Source: Clostridiales bacterium (GTDB taxonomy: Bacteria > Bacillota > Clostridia > UBA1381). From it: DNA of 46,357 bases. Below, in pieces: positions 5,108 through 46,357 of this stretch. The notes beneath the pieces were generated by a model that saw only the letters and a list, made by a program, of their open reading frames with translations, was not told the DNA's origin and ran no database searches. The first letter of the stretch is position 1; every line of letters begins with the position of its first letter. Location: positions 1-46,357 of the forward strand of contig JAQXZB010000112.1 of the NCBI GenBank assembly GCA_029226975.1, read 5' to 3'. A program made the translations under genes and the position numbers.

Positions 5108-6079
5108 TCAGATTTTTGTAAGCTTTTTTAGGGTGCGCTCCACCAGCTTAATGCTTTCGCGGGAGCTTTGGGGCGTTACTATGCCCGGCGCAGTGCCGTT
5201 TTTAACACAGTCCGCAAAATACGCAATTTCTCTGCCGTAACCGTCTGCATCGGAGATGTTTATATCCGTTTTGCCGATGGTGTCGGCGCTTGTAAAATCA
5301 ACTCTTTCGCCGCAGTCTGAAAGCACATTGTCGGAAAAATCAAGACTTCCGTTTTCAAAAACCGCCCTAAAGCCTGCCGAGAAAGGAATATCCGCCTTGT
5401 ACCATGCGCCCTGCACAGATACGCACAAGTTATCGTATATGTAATTTACAACGGCGTAATTGGTCAGATCCTTAAAATCATAATACACTCCCGAAATATC
5501 CGCAGGACTTCCCAGCACCGACTGAACAAAGTCAATGTCATGTATCATCAAATCCATTAAAACATGACCGCTCTTTTCCTTGTCAAGCATCCAGTTTTCA
5601 AAGCTCCACAGGGGTATTGAGCTAAGACGCTTCATGTCAAGGTGCAGCAGTCTGCCGTATTTTTTGCTCTCGATTGTGTTCTTTAAATAAATATACGCAT
5701 TCATAAAGCGCACAACATGGGCAACCATGAAAAGCCTGTCGGATTTTTTCGCCGCATTTTCTATTTCCTCCGCGTCCGCGTCATTTAGCGCCATGGGCTT
5801 TTCGCAAAGCACGTTGACACCGGCATTAAGTGCCTTTATAACCTGCTCCTTGTGCAGGTATGACGGGGTGCAGATGTCGATTATATCCGGCTTTTCCTTT
5901 GCCAGAAGCTCGTCAAAATCCGTGTATCTGTGCAAATCACAGCCCTCGGTCTTTTGTGAAAGCACATCGGCTCTTACATCGCAGACCGCTGTTAAATCAA
6001 TATTTTCCATGTCTTTGTATATGCCGAAATGGCAGCTTCCCATTCCGCCGATACCTATTAAAGCTGTTTTAAGCTTCAT
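5108..6079 (-). CDS. Gfo/Idh/MocA-family oxidoreductase (first of two)
   Basis: 323 residues. The N-terminal Rossmann domain starts with ALIGIGGMGSCHFGIY, matching the GxGxxG dinucleotide-binding loop, and the family EKP motif is present in NVLCEKPMALNDAD (about residues 91-104). The C-terminal half is the family's alpha/beta substrate domain. Members oxidise or reduce sugars, inositols and glycosides using NAD(P); the substrate cannot be read from sequence. ATG start with AGGGAG upstream. It follows the isomerase gene by 15 bases on the same strand, so they form an operon. A second family member lies across the AraC gene. Confidence 0.9.
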   Translation of the reverse strand: MKLKTALIGIGGMGSCHFGIYKDMENIDLTAVCDVRADVLSQKTEGCDLHRYTDFDELLAKEKPDIIDICTPSYLHKEQVIKALNAGVNVLCEKPMALNDADAEEIENAAKKSDRLFMVAHVVRFMNAYIYLKNTIESKKYGRLLHLDMKRLSSIPLWSFENWMLDKEKSGHVLMDLMIHDIDFVQSVLGSPADISGVYYDFKDLTNYAVVNYIYDNLCVSVQGAWYKADIPFSAGFRAVFENGSLDFSDNVLSDCGERVDFTSADTIGKTDINISDADGYGREIAYFADCVKNGTAPGIVTPQSSRESIKLVERTLKKLTKI

Positions 6080-6094
6080 AAAATCATCTCCCTT

Positions 6095-6907
6095 TTAAAT
6101 AAGTGCTTCAAGATAAGCTTTTGCTTCCTTTATGTCCTTAATCTGTTCCTCGCCGGATATTTCCCGCTCTATGGTTATTGCGCCGTTGTATCCGACGGAT
6201 TTTAGCTTTTCGATAAATGCGGGGTAGTTTACCTTTCCCTCTCCGAGCCTTGTTTCATTGCCGAGATTATGCCCGTCGGTGGGGTATACGCCGTCCTTAC
6301 CATGAACACCTCTTACATATTCGCCGAATACCTCCAAGGCGTCTATGGGGTTTGCCTTGCCGTACATGATAAGGTTTGCCGGGTCAAGGTTAATTCCCAA
6401 ATTGCCGGTGTCGGCGTCCTCGATTATTCTTTTTAAGGTTACGGGCGTTTCCTGACCTGTTTCAAAAAGAAAATACTGTCCGTTTTGCTTCATATGTTCG
6501 GCTATGTCCTTTACGGCGCACAAAACCTCGAAATACTCCGAGGATGAGGGCACCTCCGGCAAAAAGCCCGCGTGGGTAACAATATCCTCCACACCCAGAA
6601 GCTTTGCAAAATCCGAGCCGCGCTTTAATTCCCTCACCCGTATTTCGCGGTATGCGGGCGGCACAATTCCCAAGGTGACGGGACCTGAATAAAAATCGTA
6701 AACCGCCGGTCCGCTCCAGCCGCACCAAAAGGCGGTGATTGTAATGCCGAAGCGTTCGGTAAGGGCGTTTACCTTTTTTGCCGTTTCATCGCTCATAATA
6801 TCCGGCTGCCAGCAGCTTAACTGACAGGTCTTAAAGCCAAGCGACGCAATTTGTTCAAAATCCGACTCAACCTTGTCGGTAAGGGGTATAATTACTCCCA
6901 GTTCCAT
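6095..6907 (-). CDS. Sugar phosphate isomerase/epimerase family TIM-barrel protein
   Basis: 270 residues, AP-endonuclease-2 / xylose-isomerase-like TIM barrel (IolE/IolI-like superfamily). Visible landmarks are the Glu in FLFETGQET (strand 5), NLDPANLIM with the metal-binding Asp, the His in VRGVHGKDGV, and the C-terminal Glu in GAITIEREI; together these make the usual metal site. Such proteins isomerise, epimerise or dehydrate keto-sugars and inositol derivatives. Start ATG with AAGGAGG upstream. It is the first gene of the minus-strand operon and is divergent from the AraC regulator, which is the natural candidate to control it. The true substrate is unknown. Confidence 0.87.
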   Translation of the reverse strand: MELGVIIPLTDKVESDFEQIASLGFKTCQLSCWQPDIMSDETAKKVNALTERFGITITAFWCGWSGPAVYDFYSGPVTLGIVPPAYREIRVRELKRGSDFAKLLGVEDIVTHAGFLPEVPSSSEYFEVLCAVKDIAEHMKQNGQYFLFETGQETPVTLKRIIEDADTGNLGINLDPANLIMYGKANPIDALEVFGEYVRGVHGKDGVYPTDGHNLGNETRLGEGKVNYPAFIEKLKSVGYNGAITIEREISGEEQIKDIKEAKAYLEALI

Positions 6908-6925
6908 AAAAATTCCTCCTTGTTA

Positions 6926-7008
6926 TTGACTTTGTGTTGACTTTAGTATAAAATAAAATCAAGAAAATATCTATAATACTTTTGCGATGATATAGCACAA
7001 ATTTGAGG
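6926..7008. promoter_or_regulatory. Divergent control region with AraC-linked repeat
   Basis: On the minus strand TATACT (6950-6945) is a good -10 for the isomerase operon, but the matching -35 position is poor, as expected for an activator-dependent promoter. The repeat ATAGCACAAATTTGAG (6992-7007) lies upstream of it and is found again, identical, at 7803-7818 beyond the regulator gene. A plus-strand TATAAT (6972-6977) may serve the regulator. Two copies of TTGACTTT (6926-6933 and 6937-6944) lie 11 bases apart next to the isomerase start. The operator role is inferred. Confidence 0.55.
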
Positions 7009-7015
7009 TAATGAT

Positions 7016-7807
7016 ATGAACGATATGGAATTATACGAAAAAATTCCCGAGGAGGAATTTCCCATAAGGCTCTTAAGAAACCCAAGCAGTGATTTTCGCT
7101 TTGCTCCCCATTGGCATGAGCATACGGAGATACATTTTATTTTTGAGGGTACTGCGCGGATAAAATGCGCGGATAAGCTTGCGGTGCTTAACAGACGCGA
7201 TTGCTTTATTGTAAACGGAAACGAGCTTCATGAGGGCGTGGAGGGAAATTGCAATTACGGGTGCATAATCCTGCCGCCGTCCTTTTTTGAGAAAAATCAT
7301 GTGATTTTTAAAAATATCATAAGGGACGAAACGGTGTCGGAGCTTATGGTGAGCATATTTTCCGAATTTGAAAACGCGGACGAAGCGGGGCTTTTGGCAA
7401 TAAAGGGCTATACCTATCTGCTTGTGTCCCATCTGATCAGATGCCACAGCGAAAAGCGGTTTAACGAAAGCAATTACCGGCGGTATTTTGAAAAGCTTGA
7501 CCGAATAAACAGCGCGGTAAAATACATAAGCGAAAACTATGCCGATAATATTACCACCGCCGAGCTGGCAGGTATGGTACACATGAGCGAGGGGCATTTC
7601 TGCCATGTATTTAAAGAGGTTATGGGAAGTACGGCAAAGGAATACTTAAATTCCATACGCATAAAGAAAGCAAAGGGACTGCTTGAAGAAACCGCCATGA
7701 CCGTTACGGAGGCGGCGTACTGCTGCGGATTTTCGGACGCGAATTATTTTGCCAGGATATTTAAAAAGTATGAGGGTACAACGCCCAAGGCCGTAAGAGG
7801 AAAATAG
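7016..7807 (+). CDS. AraC-family transcriptional regulator
   Basis: 263 residues. The N-terminal half is a cupin-type sensor (APHWHEHTEIHFIFEGTARI, about residues 31-50). The C-terminal 100 residues carry two helix-turn-helix motifs of AraC/XylS type: the first in ITTAELAGMVHMSEGHFCHVFK, which leads into the linker helix, and the second in VTEAAYCCGFSDANYFARIFKK, ending with the family signature GTTPKAVR. Start ATG with GAGG 7 bases upstream. It is divergent from the isomerase/dehydrogenase operon and followed by a second dehydrogenase; identical 16-bp sequences precede both its own start and that gene, so it probably controls all three metabolic genes in response to a sugar-like ligand. Confidence 0.92.
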   Translation: MNDMELYEKIPEEEFPIRLLRNPSSDFRFAPHWHEHTEIHFIFEGTARIKCADKLAVLNRRDCFIVNGNELHEGVEGNCNYGCIILPPSFFEKNHVIFKNIIRDETVSELMVSIFSEFENADEAGLLAIKGYTYLLVSHLIRCHSEKRFNESNYRRYFEKLDRINSAVKYISENYADNITTAELAGMVHMSEGHFCHVFKEVMGSTAKEYLNSIRIKKAKGLLEETAMTVTEAAYCCGFSDANYFARIFKKYEGTTPKAVRGK

Positions 7808-7886
7808 CACAAATTTGAGAGGATAAAGCACATTATTGATGAATATGCGCCGCCGCCTTGACAAGACCATGGAGCTGTGATAGATT
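7803..7886 (+). promoter_or_regulatory. Putative AraC operator and promoter of the second dehydrogenase
   Basis: ATAGCACAAATTTGAG (7803-7818) is an exact copy of 6992-7007. A related half-site GCACATTATTG starts 21 bases after GCACAAATTTG, i.e. two helical turns on the same face, the usual geometry of AraC-family direct repeats. Downstream lies TTGACA (7858-7863), 17 bases, TAGATT (7881-7886), a plausible promoter for the gene at 7928. Binding by the adjacent AraC protein is inferred. Confidence 0.55.
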
Positions 7887-7927
7887 CAAACCAAACGGTA
7901 TTGGTGAAAGGAGCTTATAATTATAAA

Positions 7928-8935
7928 ATGAAGACTTATAAAACAGCGCTCATAGGCTGCGGACAAATGGGCGCGGTGCATATGGAGCATATATATTATA
8001 AGGAAAATATTGAGATAAGCTGTGTGTGCGACACAAACCCAAAACGGGCGGCGGAATTTATGCGCAGATACGGAGCGCGGCGCATTGAAACAGACCCGAA
8101 AAAATGCATAGAGGACGCGGATATTGTAATAATCGCCACTTATCCCTCATCGCATCTTTCGTTGCTTCGGCTGTGCCTTAATGAGGGTAAGCATGTTATA
8201 TGCGAAAAGCCGATTGCCCAAAACCGAGAGGACGGGGAGGAGTTTGTGGAGCTTGTAAAGGCACACCCGGAATGTAAGGTGCTTGTGGGATATATTTTAA
8301 GACATAATCATACATATAAAAAGGCGGCGCAGATGATACGGTCGGGGGCTATAGGCAAGCCGGTAATTATGCGCATGGCTCAAAATCATCATACCATGGA
8401 CTGGGCAAGGTATCTTAGGCTTATAAAGGAAAGCTCGCCGGTCATAGACTGCGGTGTGCATTATATGGATGTAATGCAGTGGTTTACCGGCGAAAGGATT
8501 GAGGAAGTATCCGCAATAGGTGCGCGCACCGAGGCAGATGTGCCGCCGGGGAGATATAATTACGGTCTTGTAACGGTAAAAATGAGCGGCGGCTCAATCG
8601 GATACTACGAGGCGGGCTGGTCGAACACGATGTCCTCTGAAAATTTAAAGGAATTTATAGGTCCCAAGGGACGTATAAGGATTACTTATCAAAAGGACAG
8701 AGTCCAAAACAGCGAGGAGGGGGATTTGATAGAATATTACAAATACCCCGAAAAGGAATACATAAGCATAAACGTAAACTGTGACCGCAAGCCGGCGGGG
8801 GAACAGCTTGATTATCTGATTGAAATGATAGAGCATGATATTCCCGCCGTACCCCAAATGGACGAGGTGGCGCAAAGCTTCAAAGCTGTGCTTGACGCGG
8901 ACGAGTGCATAAGAAGAATACCCGTGTGCAAATGA
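7928..8935 (+). CDS. Gfo/Idh/MocA-family oxidoreductase (second of two)
   Basis: 335 residues from the ATG at 7928. The Rossmann motif is ALIGCGQMGAVHMEHIY, the EKP motif is in HVICEKPIAQNRED, and a conserved Asp/His pair of the active-site region is in SSPVIDCGVHYMDVMQWF. NAD(P)-dependent oxidation or reduction of a cyclic polyol or sugar is the family role. The start is not certain: AAGGAG (7908-7913) is 14 bases upstream, which is long, and an in-frame GTG at 7877 would add 17 residues that do not resemble the family N-terminus. The protein is clearly different from the first dehydrogenase, so the two probably act on different substrates or in opposite directions, as in keto-sugar pathways. 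Confidence 0.88.
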   Translation: MKTYKTALIGCGQMGAVHMEHIYYKENIEISCVCDTNPKRAAEFMRRYGARRIETDPKKCIEDADIVIIATYPSSHLSLLRLCLNEGKHVICEKPIAQNREDGEEFVELVKAHPECKVLVGYILRHNHTYKKAAQMIRSGAIGKPVIMRMAQNHHTMDWARYLRLIKESSPVIDCGVHYMDVMQWFTGERIEEVSAIGARTEADVPPGRYNYGLVTVKMSGGSIGYYEAGWSNTMSSENLKEFIGPKGRIRITYQKDRVQNSEEGDLIEYYKYPEKEYISINVNCDRKPAGEQLDYLIEMIEHDIPAVPQMDEVAQSFKAVLDADECIRRIPVCK

Positions 8936-8964
8936 TTGACATTGCACATAAAATATGCTATAAT
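8936..8964 (+). promoter_or_regulatory. Consensus sigma-A promoter of the toxin-antitoxin pair
   Basis: TTGACA (8936-8941), 17 bases, TATAAT (8959-8964), with TGC before the -10 (extended -10). It is a perfect match to the sigma-A consensus and starts on the base after the stop codon of the upstream gene. Confidence 0.85.
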
Positions 8965-8994: not shown

Positions 8995-9261
8995 ATGGCT
9001 ACAACAAATATTACAATTCGTATGGATAAGGAGTTGAAAGACCGGGCAGATGATTTGTTTGCCGCTTTGGGGCTTAATATGTCTACTGCAATAGGTGTTT
9101 TTTGCAGGCAGGCTGTAAGGCTCGGCAAAATTCCTTTTGAGCTTGCGGTGGATGTGCCCAATGCTGAAACTCTTGCCGCAATTGATGATGTGAACAACAA
9201 CCGAAACATGAGCAAGGCTTATGATGACATGGATGAACTAATGAGGGACTTGAATGCTTAA
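8995..9261 (+). CDS. dinJ: RelB/DinJ-family antitoxin
   Basis: 88 residues. The N-terminal ribbon-helix-helix region (TNITIRMDKELKDRADDLF, then LGLNMSTAIGVFCRQAV) matches DinJ/RelB antitoxins, which dimerise, bind their own promoter and neutralise the partner toxin with the C-terminal part. The start at 8995 is chosen because AGGGGG lies about 8 bases upstream; the frame is open further upstream into the previous gene but without a site. The last 8 bases overlap the toxin gene. Autorepression of the strong promoter at 8936 is expected from the family but no operator palindrome was resolved. Confidence 0.93.
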   Translation: MATTNITIRMDKELKDRADDLFAALGLNMSTAIGVFCRQAVRLGKIPFELAVDVPNAETLAAIDDVNNNRNMSKAYDDMDELMRDLNA

Positions 9262-9526
9262 GGTCAGATATTCTTCAAGATTTAAAAAGGATTTTAAAGC
9301 AATCATAAAGCGCGGATATAACATTTCGTTATTTGAGGAGGTTATTATTCTTTTAAGGGAAGAAAAAGAACTGCCTGAAAAATATAATGACCATGCGCTG
9401 AAAGGGGATTATATCGGGCACCGCGAATGTCATATTACTCCGGACTGGCTCTTGATATATAAAAAAGAGAATGATATGATTACTTTATCCTTAACCCGAA
9501 CGTGCAGCCACAGTGATTTGTTTTAA
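9254..9526 (+). CDS. yafQ: YafQ-family mRNA interferase toxin
   Basis: 90 residues, the family length. The RelE-fold active site is intact: HALKGDYIGHRECHITPDWLLIY contains the His-x-Leu, RECHI His and PDW residues, and the C-terminal CSHSDLF carries the catalytic His and terminal Phe corresponding to H87 and F91 of E. coli YafQ. These toxins cut ribosome-bound mRNA, typically at AAA codons. It begins inside the antitoxin gene (8-bp overlap), ensuring coupled translation. The stop lies 5 bases from the convergent rlmH stop with no terminator between them. Confidence 0.93.
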   Translation: MLKVRYSSRFKKDFKAIIKRGYNISLFEEVIILLREEKELPEKYNDHALKGDYIGHRECHITPDWLLIYKKENDMITLSLTRTCSHSDLF

Positions 9527-40527: not shown

Positions 40528-42270
40528 ATGAAAAAAAATATAAGCTTTTTAATGGTAGTAATAAGTGTTGTAATATGCATGCTACCATCTGCAAAAGCTG
40601 CAGAATATGAAGAAAAGGACGGATTTATATATATAAAAGGTACAAATATAATAACAAGATATGTGGGTACGTCCTCCGAGGTGCGTATTCCGGATAATAC
40701 AAAACTTGATTTTAATTTTGATTTAGCAAACAGAAGAAAAACAGAAGATAATGGATGGCAGATTGATGACTTTGTAAGGAAACTTACGATAGGGAACAAT
40801 GTACAATATGATGGAAGAACATTAAGCATGGCGGTTAATCAATATTCTAACATAGAAGAAATTATTTTTGAAGAAGGCATATCATATATACCGGATTACA
40901 CAGGTCAGGGATGGAGTACTATAAAAAATATTTCATTTCCCGATACATTGGAATCAATCGGAGCATATGCATTTTCGGATTATGAAAATGATAACAAAGG
41001 TGCACCGCAGATAGAATCCTTATACATACCGAACTCTGTATTGAAGATAGGGGAACGTGCTTTTAAAGGGTGTGAGGAACTAAAAGAGCTGCACCTATCT
41101 GAAAAACTGCAGACTATGGGTGAAAATGCCTTTATGCGCGTCAATACAAACTCGGTTAATTTGCCTATCAATTTGAATACAGGCGAGGTTACTGCAGTTG
41201 TTCAAGCTAAAGAATATATTTTCGGAGATATGACGGCAAAAATATATAAAGCTTTATGGTTTACAGATTGGATCAAGGAGAAATATCTAAAAGGCTTGAC
41301 AGGAAAGAACATGGGAGAGTATGAGGACTTTATTATACTTGACAATGTTTTGTGTAAATATATAGGTGCTGATCCAAATCCAATTATACCGCAGGAGGTT
41401 AAGGAAATATGTCCGGGTGCTTTTGAACGATGTAATATTAAAACGGTTGTGTTGCCGGAGGACATTAAAGAAATACCGTTGAGATGCTTTTATGAATCAA
41501 AATTAGAAGAAATTAAAATTCCGGAGAGCGTAGAAACAATAGGAGCTGCATCATTTGTTGGAACAAAAATAAAGAAGTTAACTATTCCTAAATCTGTAAA
41601 AAATATAGCTACAACATTTGCTGAAAGATGCATAGAACTTGAAGAGGTTACGTTTGAGGGGGCACCGAAGATGGGGGTGTTTTTTCAGGATTCATACAAG
41701 CTGAAAAAAGAAAATGTGCATTTTTTAGACAGCAGTATTGTTGTGCCGGATGAATTTTGGGGTTTTTTAGAAATAGATAGCATTCTAACAATAATACCGA
41801 CCCAAAAGCCGGACAGCACCGCAAGCCCGACCCAATCCCCAAAGCCAACAGCCGCGCCCACCACAGCGCCTACGGCAACACCCACCGCCGTACCGACGGC
41901 AACACCGACACCGGAGGAGAAGCATATTGATGTTTCGTCCAAAGGGGGTGATGTGGAGCTTGTAATCAATTCCCGGGCGGTGCATTTTCCGGACGCAAAG
42001 CCGTTTATAGATGAATCGGACAGAACTCAAATCCCCATCAGGGTTTTGTCGGAGCTTCTGGGTTTTGAGGTCAAATGGGAGGAAGAAAGCCATACGGCAG
42101 TATTAACTCGCGAAAATACTGTTATAACCGTTAAAATAGGTGATAAGCACATTACCAAAAACGGCAACCCCATAGAAATGGACACCGAAGCCAAAATAAT
42201 CGGTGACAGAACATATATCCCCTTACGTTTTATCGCCGAGGCTCTCGGCTGCACCGTTGAGTGGAAATGA
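40528..42270 (+). CDS. Surface LRR protein with copper-amine-oxidase-like C-terminal domain (1)
   Basis: 580 residues. Signal peptide 1-22. BspA-type leucine-rich repeats (LRR_5) from about 95 to 410, with units like LYIPNSVLKIGERAFKGCEE and IKIPESVETIGAASF, then a Pro/Thr linker (AAPTTAPTATPTAVP) and a C-terminal copper amine oxidase N-terminal-like domain (about 475-580; IPIRVLSELLGFEVKWEEES, YIPLRFIAEALGCTVEW). Such proteins bind host or wall polymers. The start at 40528 has GGAGG 9 bases upstream; an ATG at 40519 touches that site. The 3' end is nearly identical to that of the next gene. Confidence 0.9.
   Translation: MKKNISFLMVVISVVICMLPSAKAAEYEEKDGFIYIKGTNIITRYVGTSSEVRIPDNTKLDFNFDLANRRKTEDNGWQIDDFVRKLTIGNNVQYDGRTLSMAVNQYSNIEEIIFEEGISYIPDYTGQGWSTIKNISFPDTLESIGAYAFSDYENDNKGAPQIESLYIPNSVLKIGERAFKGCEELKELHLSEKLQTMGENAFMRVNTNSVNLPINLNTGEVTAVVQAKEYIFGDMTAKIYKALWFTDWIKEKYLKGLTGKNMGEYEDFIILDNVLCKYIGADPNPIIPQEVKEICPGAFERCNIKTVVLPEDIKEIPLRCFYESKLEEIKIPESVETIGAASFVGTKIKKLTIPKSVKNIATTFAERCIELEEVTFEGAPKMGVFFQDSYKLKKENVHFLDSSIVVPDEFWGFLEIDSILTIIPTQKPDSTASPTQSPKPTAAPTTAPTATPTAVPTATPTPEEKHIDVSSKGGDVELVINSRAVHFPDAKPFIDESDRTQIPIRVLSELLGFEVKWEEESHTAVLTRENTVITVKIGDKHITKNGNPIEMDTEAKIIGDRTYIPLRFIAEALGCTVEWK
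41850..42270 (+). repeat. 421-bp direct repeat, copy 1
   Basis: Covers the Pro/Thr linker and C-terminal domain of the first LRR gene. It is collinear without gaps with 43978-44398, with roughly twenty single-base differences seen by eye, many silent. Points to recent duplication or gene conversion between the two genes. Confidence 0.85.
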
Positions 42271-42289
42271 ATTACAAGGAGAATGAGTT

Positions 42290-44398
42290 ATGAAAAAAAT
42301 TTTATCCTTATTGATAATATGCGCATTGGCGGCATCAAGCGTTGTTTTTGCCCAAGATAACGGCGAAAACGTATATAAAGACCCTAACGGCTACAGTATA
42401 CGCTATGTACCCAACGGTGACGGTATCGAAATTACAAAATGTATTTTTGAGAAAAACAGAGCGTTGGTAATTCCAAAGGAAATAGACGGCAAAAAGGTTA
42501 ATTCGCTTGCCTGCGAATTTGTCGGAGACGGGTTTGAATCGGTGGAAATTCAGGCGGATATAACCGAGATAATGGATATGACTCTGACATTTAACAATAC
42601 CGTTAAAAAAATTGTACTGAATGAGGGCTTAAAAAAGATAGGTTGGAGCTTTGCAAACAATAATACCGCTTTGACAGAGGTTGTTTTGCCGAGTACACTG
42701 GAGGAGATGGCGGTTGGGTGTTTCAGTGAGTGTCCCAAGCTTAACAAAGTAAAAATACCTGATAATCTGAATAAAATAGGCAACGGTGCATTTTCCTTTT
42801 GTTCATCACTTACGGATATTGAATGGGATATGACCGCGGACGAATGCGGTAGGGATTTTGCAAAAAAAACACCGTGGCTTGCCGAATACGGAAAAACGCA
42901 TGAGTGGCTTGCCATTAACAACGGCAGTTATATTGTGAGTTATGTCGGACAAGGCGGAAGTATCGAAGTACCCAAGTCTGAAAAAATCAATTATGGCGTA
43001 TGTATAGATAACACAACCATAACCGAAGTTACCTCTGTATACGGAGTGCCGGACGGTATGTTCATACGCTGTGAAAACCTAAAGTCCGCAAATATTATAA
43101 GTGGAGAGCTGTCGGATCATGCATTTGCCGAATGCAGTGCTTTAAGCGAGATTAATCTGCCACAGGATATTGAGGTTATTCCAAGTGCTGCTTTTTATTG
43201 CTGTAAATCACTTAAAAGCTTTGACTTTCCTCAAAAGCTTAAAATAATAAACAGTGCTGCTTTCCAGGGCAGCGGTCTTGAAAATGTGCGGGTGCCGGAG
43301 GGTGTAGCCGAAATCGGGTCAAGTGCGTTTGAGTATTGCAACAGCCTTACAAGCATACATTTTCCCTCTACTCTTACATATCTGGGCAAAAGTGCGGTAT
43401 ACGGCTGTGAAAAGCTCATAAGCGCAAACATTCCGGACGGTGTAAAGGATTCATTGCAGGCTACGTTTTGGTACTGCAATTCCCTTGAAAATGTGGAATG
43501 TTCGGAAATGACAAAAAGCATTTACAATGCAACTGCAAAAACTCCATGGAATGAAAAATATGCGGCTGAAAACATGGATAAAAATTCCGAATTTTTCATT
43601 GTGGGGGACGAACTGAAAAAATATAACGGAACGGACAGGAATCCGATTATACCTGATGGAGTAAAGATTATATGCGGAAGTGCATTTGATAATGCGAAAA
43701 TAGACAGTGTGGTTTTTCCTGCCGGTCTTGAAGAAATTCAAGGCGGAGCATTTTATATGTCTGAGATTAGGGAAGTAATAATACCCAAAAGTGTAAAAAG
43801 TATAGGAAGTCTTGCCTTTGGCGAATGTCATAAGCTTGAAAGCGTTGAAATTCAATGCGATTGTTCTATACCCTCGCATACATTTGAAAATTGCACCGCG
43901 CTGAAAAATGAAAATGTCAAATTGACGGGAAAAGCCAAGATTGCTTCCGATGCGTTTCCTTTCAAGCGAGAAAATATAGCCGCGCCCACCACAGTGCCTA
44001 CGGCGGCACCCACCGCCGTACCGACGGCAACATCGACACCGGAGGAGAAGCATATCGATGTTTCGTCCAAAGGGGGTGATGTGGAGCTTGTAATCAATTC
44101 CGAAACGGTGCATTTTCCGGACGCAAAGCCGTTTATAGATGAATCGGACAGAACTCAAATCCCCATCAGGGTTTTGTCGGAGCTTTTAGGCTTTGAGGTC
44201 AAATGGGAGGAAGAAAGCCATACGGCAGTATTAACTCGCGAAAATACTGTCATAACCGTTAAAATAGGTGATAAGCACATTACCAAAAACGGAACACCCA
44301 TAGAAATGGACACCGAAGCCAAAATAATCGGTGACAGAACATACATCCCCTTACGTTTTATCGCCGAGGCTCTCGGCTGCACCGTTGAGTGGAAATAG
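42290..44398 (+). CDS. Surface LRR protein with copper-amine-oxidase-like C-terminal domain (2)
   Basis: 702 residues. Signal peptide 1-21 (VVFA). Longer BspA-type LRR region (about 95-560; LPSTLEEMAVGCFSECPKLN, VPEGVAEIGSSAFEYCNS), a short Pro/Thr linker (APTTVPTAAPTAVPTATSTP) and the same C-terminal domain as the preceding protein. ATG with AAGGAG 7 bases upstream. Starts 19 bases after the stop of the first LRR gene; both and probably 38824-40485 form one unit. Confidence 0.9.
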   Translation: MKKILSLLIICALAASSVVFAQDNGENVYKDPNGYSIRYVPNGDGIEITKCIFEKNRALVIPKEIDGKKVNSLACEFVGDGFESVEIQADITEIMDMTLTFNNTVKKIVLNEGLKKIGWSFANNNTALTEVVLPSTLEEMAVGCFSECPKLNKVKIPDNLNKIGNGAFSFCSSLTDIEWDMTADECGRDFAKKTPWLAEYGKTHEWLAINNGSYIVSYVGQGGSIEVPKSEKINYGVCIDNTTITEVTSVYGVPDGMFIRCENLKSANIISGELSDHAFAECSALSEINLPQDIEVIPSAAFYCCKSLKSFDFPQKLKIINSAAFQGSGLENVRVPEGVAEIGSSAFEYCNSLTSIHFPSTLTYLGKSAVYGCEKLISANIPDGVKDSLQATFWYCNSLENVECSEMTKSIYNATAKTPWNEKYAAENMDKNSEFFIVGDELKKYNGTDRNPIIPDGVKIICGSAFDNAKIDSVVFPAGLEEIQGGAFYMSEIREVIIPKSVKSIGSLAFGECHKLESVEIQCDCSIPSHTFENCTALKNENVKLTGKAKIASDAFPFKRENIAAPTTVPTAAPTAVPTATSTPEEKHIDVSSKGGDVELVINSETVHFPDAKPFIDESDRTQIPIRVLSELLGFEVKWEEESHTAVLTRENTVITVKIGDKHITKNGTPIEMDTEAKIIGDRTYIPLRFIAEALGCTVEWK
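43978..44398 (+). repeat. 421-bp direct repeat, copy 2
   Basis: Second copy, at the 3' end of the larger LRR gene. The upstream LRR parts of the two genes are not similar at the DNA level, so only this cassette is shared. Confidence 0.85.
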
Positions 44399-44413
44399 CG
44401 GCTTTGCCGCACT

Positions 44414-46021: not shown

Positions 46022-46152
46022 TTTTTCGAAGCGAAGCAGTGCGCGCTTGCGGTAAATGCAGTGTGCAAAGCCAAAAAAGCGAGCCTGTAACGCTGAGAAT
46101 GTCGTATTTGGAGAAAAATACGAAAAAAATATAAAAAAATCGAAAAAAGTGC
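46022..46152 (+). other. Gene-free spacer after sigF
   Basis: No gene and no clear terminator were found. It holds GC-rich words (GCAGTGCGCGCTTGCGG, GAAGCGAAGC) that resemble inner parts of the 14520-14685 element, followed by an A-rich stretch leading to the first stable-RNA promoter. Confidence 0.4.
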
Positions 46153-46181
46153 TTGACAAAGTAAAAAAAGTGTGGTAATAT
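46153..46181 (+). promoter_or_regulatory. Stable-RNA promoter P1
   Basis: TTGACA (46153-46158), 17 bases, TAATAT (46176-46181). Spacer and flanks are almost identical to P2 105 bases downstream, and like the tRNA-Pro promoter at 25340. Confidence 0.82.
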
Positions 46182-46257
46182 AAGTAGGCTGTCGCAAGAG
46201 AGCGCACACTTAAAAAGAGGCTTTTGAAAAAAAATTAAAAAAATTTGAAAAAAACTC

Positions 46258-46286
46258 TTGACAAAGTAAAAAAAGTGTGGTAATAT
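46258..46286 (+). promoter_or_regulatory. Stable-RNA promoter P2
   Basis: TTGACA (46258-46263), 17 bases, TAATAT (46281-46286). After it comes the small hairpin CTGTC-GCAAA-GACAG. Confidence 0.82.
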
Positions 46287-46357
46287 AAATAAGCTGTCGC
46301 AAAGACAGTGCTTGTACATTGAAAAACAAATAGTGCAGAGTTCTTGTCAAAAGAATG
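46287..46357 (+). other. Probable ribosomal RNA operon leader (cut by window end)
   Basis: After P2 the sequence contains TGTACATTGAAAAAC (46313-46327), similar to the TGTTCTTTGAAAAC box in front of B. subtilis 16S genes. No mature rRNA sequence is reached. An rRNA operon, or less likely a tRNA cluster, should begin just right of the window. Confidence 0.6.

Follow-up and report, generated by a model that had tools for sequence, protein, structure and literature searches.

On the 46,357-nucleotide contig JAQXZB010000112.1 of a Clostridiales bacterium (assembly GCA_029226975.1; the whole of this stretch is referred to as the window), an AraC-family regulator gene (araC) is flanked by two exact copies of the 16-base sequence ATAGCACAAATTTGAG, both on the + strand and spaced 812 bp apart. 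Judging from the sequence comparisons described below, both copies very probably form the strong half of a tandem operator with a 21-bp period, recognized by the AraC protein encoded between them. Through these operators, the protein would repress its own gene, activate a divergent operon encoding a xylose-isomerase-like protein and a Gfo/Idh/MocA oxidoreductase (Gfo1), and control a second oxidoreductase gene of this type (Gfo2) on the far side of araC. An operator of the AraC protein had been proposed in an initial annotation of the window, and this proposal gains support from the conservation of the site before araC homologues, its position, its near-exclusive tie to araC loci within the family, and its tandem half-sites 21 bp apart.

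An exact repeat on both sides of the araC gene

The first copy (6992–7007) starts 24 bases and ends 8 bases upstream of the araC start codon (ATG at 7016). Its proximity to this codon had already been noted, as had a separation of over 800 bases between the copies, and of the coordinates assigned initially those of the first copy were correct, while the second copy lies at 7804–7819 and not at 7803–7818 (one base too low). The first base of this second copy is the last base of the final araC sense codon, and the TAG stop codon (7805–7807) is located inside it.

Dinucleotide shuffles of the whole window had a mean of 0.48 exact direct repeats of 16 bases, so that a single one anywhere within 46 kb is not unusual. 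An exact repeat of this length within 1000 bp arose in 2 of 100 window shuffles, and the stretches flanking araC (6908–7015 and 7801–7927) had a 16-mer in common in none of 20,000 shuffles. A genome-wide search for the repeat, which had been suggested as a check, did not reveal a crowd of unrelated copies: in the whole 2.8-Mb genome, ATAGCACAAATTTGAG occurs exactly at these two places only, with one mismatch nowhere, and with two mismatches twice, both times within listed reading frames. Allowing up to three mismatches yielded 26 matches in total, versus 47 for a reversed control pattern. We regard the repeat as not due to chance, the decisive evidence being its conservation in relatives.

A single gene between two exact direct repeats, at a place where the genes 3′ of araC vary among related loci, might also hint at a target-site duplication or recombination scar around an inserted araC gene. 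This explanation is hardly credible, since relatives keep the upstream copy without a downstream one, and do so in a conserved promoter-operator layout. Moreover, the sequences flanking the two copies diverge immediately, only araC lies between the copies, and no relative was seen that carries a single copy and lacks araC at this position.

The site is conserved upstream of araC homologues

Homologues of araC were found in 9 of the 70 family genomes (this genome counted), with one further homologue in the order (10 of 95 genomes at the stricter limit) and one full-length relative (L036) from a Clostridia metagenome assembly. The set comprises 10 loci including the present one (L027–L036; the other nine regulators are 36–67% identical) and an eleventh, L054. 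A site of the form WTAGCACWWWWTTG was present 24–44 bases 5′ of the araC start used in 10 of 11 close homologues, and at exactly 24 bases in six of them. Among nine remoter loci (L037–L045), none had a nearby site of fewer than three mismatches. In the 10 homologues, the first helix-turn-helix has a similar recognition helix (mostly S-E-x-x-F-C-H/R-x-F-K), which fits a common half-site.

With the stricter pattern WTAGCACAAWWTTGA, the 70 family genomes gave 8 matches, 7 of which are located at araC loci (copy 2 included), compared to 1 match for the reversed control. The pattern was present in 6 of the 9 genomes having an araC homologue versus 1 of the 61 genomes without, and it misses variants of the site in three homologue genomes (G011, G050 and G068). 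At the sole family match away from araC loci (in G017), the 1.9-kb locus is devoid of AraC-like genes. Class-wide, WTAGCACAAWWTTGA was matched 24 times in 23 of 391 genomes (11 times for the control); four of these matches are known loci, and the other 20 are without a related regulator starting downstream. One class-wide match (L090) is close to an AraC-like gene, but to its end and not its start. Outside araC loci, the class-wide matches thus look like background. When one mismatch was allowed, the 9 homologue genomes held 30 places (7 exact and 23 with one mismatch) versus 7 for the control. Fifteen of the 23 one-mismatch places lie inside reading frames and one is the operator of G068, which upon inspection by eye was the only one of the 23 with a convincing partner 21 bp away.

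The location of the site in the leader just 5′ of the araC start, with a GAG(G) end that overlaps the likely Shine-Dalgarno sequence in most loci, would also suit a translational or RNA-level signal of the leader instead of a DNA operator. Such a signal is very improbable. The motif is not a ribosome-site effect, because it is kept in L031, L033 and L034, where the likely Shine-Dalgarno sequence is elsewhere, and both the weak partner 21 bp upstream and the presence of copy 2 before another gene fit DNA binding. Chance, a ribosome-site effect and a recombination scar were rejected on the grounds of conservation in relatives, retention of the motif with a separate ribosome site, and differing flanks, respectively.

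The probable operator consists of tandem half-sites 21 bp apart

For each locus, half-sites were scored with a leave-one-out matrix derived from the strong half-sites at the nine remaining loci. Over the 10 loci, an offset of –21 topped the 97 offsets scored, with a mean of –6.6 bits against an all-offset mean of –22.9 (standard deviation 4.5). This score was equalled in 0 of 2000 mononucleotide shuffles, and in none of 300 shuffles did any offset from –60 to –16 score as well as the observed –21. The negative value of the score reflects the degeneracy of the weak upstream half-site, in which mostly a TTTG-like second part is kept. For copy 2, a related half-site 21 bases further on had been reported, and this corresponds to AAAGCACATTATTGAT at 7825–7840, which ranked 4 of 92,684 window positions with a matrix made without this genome.

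On this sequence evidence, the operator comprises two half-sites on the same strand with a 21-bp spacing, in the manner of the AraC family. AraC-family sites in the form of direct repeats with a 21-bp period have been described in several groups, among them Bacillales and Enterococcus (PMC3870299, PMC8579813).

Predicted promoters around the probable operators and a proposed mechanism

A TTGAC(T/A)-17-TATAAT-like araC promoter (10–11 of 12 matches) is located 16–17 bases before the tandem operator in 9 of the 10 loci, this one included; in the exception (L030), the promoter matches at 12 of 12 positions and lies 27 bases from the operator. The conserved position of the operator past the araC –10 box points to autorepression, in line with the autoregulation suggested initially. 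On the opposite strand, all 10 loci have a TATAAT-like box (5–6 of 6, with one base of slack) at a fixed distance, together with a poor –35 near the weak half-site. In the window, this divergent catabolic promoter, predicted from consensus boxes only, has a weak –35 (TAGATA) that abuts the weak, promoter-proximal half-site, and a –10 (TATACT) that overlaps the araC –10. A promoter scan over the whole window returned 10 promoter-like sites versus a shuffle mean of 8.3, and hence no excess.

In the mechanism that we propose, and for which we infer binding, ligand, direction of regulation and transcription starts, a regulator dimer on the first operator (6971–7007) would be located between about +10 and +46 relative to the araC transcription start and block araC, autorepression being proposed because of the operator position in the araC leader. 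The same dimer would occupy about –33 to –69 of the isomerase-Gfo1 promoter and activate the divergent operon, with the cupin domain probably holding a sugar-like ligand; this activation is proposed because of the habit of the AraC family and the poor –35. The second operator (7804–7840) would place Gfo2 under the same regulator. In C. bescii, the sites of the four single-component AraC-type regulators, all of them tandem repeats, lie 5′ of mapped promoters, and each of these regulators was considered an activator (PMC8579813). It is conceivable, albeit rather doubtful, that the leader as such functions as a switch, in which face-to-face promoters have a common –10 and the dimer, bound shortly past the araC transcription start, road-blocks araC and hands this –10 to the divergent operon. 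Such a switch would explain the fixed 16–17 bp promoter-operator spacing as well as the unusual orientation of the half-sites.

A number of observations weigh against the proposed operators. In araBAD-like class II activation, half-sites point towards the activated promoter. The orientations of the two operators with respect to their presumed target promoters are opposite: copy 1 faces away from the divergent operon, and copy 2 faces Gfo2 but lies ~20 bp further from its predicted –10. The weak partner of copy 1 (at 6971) scores poorly in this genome (rank 250 among the 92,684 window positions), and the divergent –10 signal is confounded by its overlap with the araC –10 and hence less secure. 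In one homologue from a different family of the order (L054; 37% identical), the site is absent from its usual position, and the best-matching stretches, at –98 and –142, have 3–4 mismatches. MarA, moreover, has class II sites that are forward and overlap the –35 and class I sites that are reverse and further upstream (PMC12052159), and neither copy obeys these rules, as the weak half of copy 1 is reverse at the –35 and copy 2 is forward further upstream. Dimeric AraC-family members need not obey them. Finally, a copy directly 3′ of araC was found in 0 of the 9 other loci, and copy 2 rests on one genome.

This last point, together with the overlap of copy 2 with a stop codon and an orientation to its promoter unlike that of copy 1, might indicate that only copy 1 is a genuine operator, copy 2 being a match by chance or a relict without influence on the regulation of Gfo2. 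We consider this unlikely in view of the 16-base identity, the highly ranked partner at exactly 21 bp, the failure of all 20,000 shuffles to yield a common 16-mer, and the Gfo2 orthologue that in G068 forms one run with Gfo1 and the isomerase gene.

The proposed regulon in relatives

In 8 of the 10 loci, the divergent neighbours of araC encode Gfo/Idh/MocA proteins and/or isomerases; G050 (L030/L073) has a GH20 glycosidase gene there, and L036 has genes for a PIG-L de-N-acetylase and a PfkB kinase. In G068, a Gfo2 orthologue (56–57%) is located within a divergent Gfo1-isomerase-Gfo2 run beside the araC homologue, suggesting that Gfo2 probably goes with the divergent operon and favouring the earlier suggestion of one regulon for the three metabolic genes. 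Copy 2 would then be a plausible way to hold a separate Gfo2 under the same control. A search of 95 genomes placed Gfo2 orthologues at 13 positions in 11 of them, with this genome and G088 each contributing two; a site directly upstream was found at none of these places except for copy 2. A two-mismatch site (ATAGCACAATATTTG) was observed upstream of a Gfo1-Gfo2 pair in G079 (L064:390–404), and the 8-kb stretch analysed there showed no AraC-like gene.

The genome-wide search had also been expected to disclose further members, notably a transporter, but whole-genome motif searches found no further regulon target or transporter in this genome. A relative, G011, has a permease gene (Mem_trans, PF03547; L072:5781–6677) that overlaps the 3′ end of the araC homologue and is a candidate for the transporter of the pathway in that genome, not in this one.

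Genes and other features of the window

The regulator joins an N-terminal ligand domain of the sugar-responsive AraC/XylS subgroup (PF02311 AraC_binding, E 3.3e-10) to a C-terminal double helix-turn-helix (PF12833 HTH_18, E 1.1e-22, residues 184–261), and no NCBIfam equivalog attained its cut-off. The Gfo2 reading frame in the program-made list opens at GTG 7877, ATG 7928 being the likelier start. The features of the locus are listed in Table 1.

Table 1. Predicted operators, promoters and genes of the araC locus (window coordinates)
Feature	Position	Strand	Remarks
Copy 1, strong half-site ATAGCACAAATTTGAG	6992–7007	+	araC leader; 3′ end enters likely Shine-Dalgarno GAGG
Copy 1, weak partner half-site	6971–6986	+	21 bp towards divergent operon; offset analysis
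Copy 2, strong half-site ATAGCACAAATTTGAG	7804–7819	+	exact repeat; araC stop codon inside
Copy 2, partner half-site AAAGCACATTATTGAT	7825–7840	+	21 bp downstream; matrix score
Predicted araC promoter, TTGACT-17-TAAAAT	6926–6954	+	ends 16 bp 5′ of operator
Predicted divergent-operon promoter, –35 TAGATA, –10 TATACT	6945–6973	–	inferred from consensus boxes
Predicted Gfo2 promoter, TTGACA-17-TAGATT	7858–7886	+	17 bp beyond second operator
AraC-family regulator, 263 amino acids	7016–7807	+	N-terminal AraC_binding (cupin), C-terminal HTH_18
Xylose-isomerase-like TIM barrel (AP_endonuc_2), divergent operon gene 1	6095–6907	–	domain match
Gfo/Idh/MocA oxidoreductase 1 (Gfo1), divergent operon gene 2	5108–6079	–	domain match
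Gfo/Idh/MocA oxidoreductase 2 (Gfo2)	7928–8935	+	domain match; likely start ATG 7928

Directly 3′ of Gfo2 (8995–9526) lie genes for a RelB-like antitoxin and a YafQ-like toxin (PF04221, PF15738), with a perfect TTGACA-17-TATAAT promoter at 8936–8964. Elsewhere in the window, an exact 32-bp direct repeat at 46152–46183 and 46257–46288 (105 bp apart) resembles a duplicated promoter (CTTGACAAAGTAAAAAAAGTGTGGTAATATAA), and the region 41850–44400 contains two closely similar stretches ~2.1 kb apart, with exact blocks of up to 80 bp, apparently reflecting a duplicated stretch.

Comparison with known systems

Tandem half-sites at a similar distance from the catabolic promoter are found at araI1-araI2 of E. 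coli, where the AraC half-site begins with a TAGC box, as it does here. Unlike in the tandem arrangement described here, the sites of MarA-type proteins are single and bound by monomers. The regulator resembles E. coli AraC acting at araI1-araI2 (PMC4760080) in being an AraC-type cupin-helix-turn-helix protein, the differences being that the orientation towards the divergent operon is reversed and that a second operator lies past the 3′ end of the regulator gene. With the marbox of MarA, SoxS and Rob (PMC12052159), the site has in common that it is asymmetric, contains GCA, and would act in a manner dependent on position and orientation. As in the AraC/XylS sugar-use operators of Firmicutes and Bacteroides (L-rhamnose regulators, PMC3870299; C. 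bescii, PMC8579813), a local regulator stands beside catabolic genes, a likeness in the published description. Unlike in those systems, the cluster here is one of Gfo/Idh/MocA and isomerase genes, and the strong half-site is located in the regulator's own leader, 3′ of the predicted promoter. A literature search on the motif or the cluster, mostly outside subscription journals, found no paper, and a search with the motif letters TAGCACAA gave nothing relevant-looking among the matches listed.

The site very probably represents a new operator of a regulator of familiar type, and as such an ordinary, standard bacterial switch. For an uncharacterised AraC regulator of a pathway with Gfo/Idh/MocA and isomerase enzymes, it supplies an operator that can be tested and a minimal regulon, in which a pathway gene outside the main operon (Gfo2) would have an operator copy of its own, and thereby helps to place the three enzymes in one pathway.
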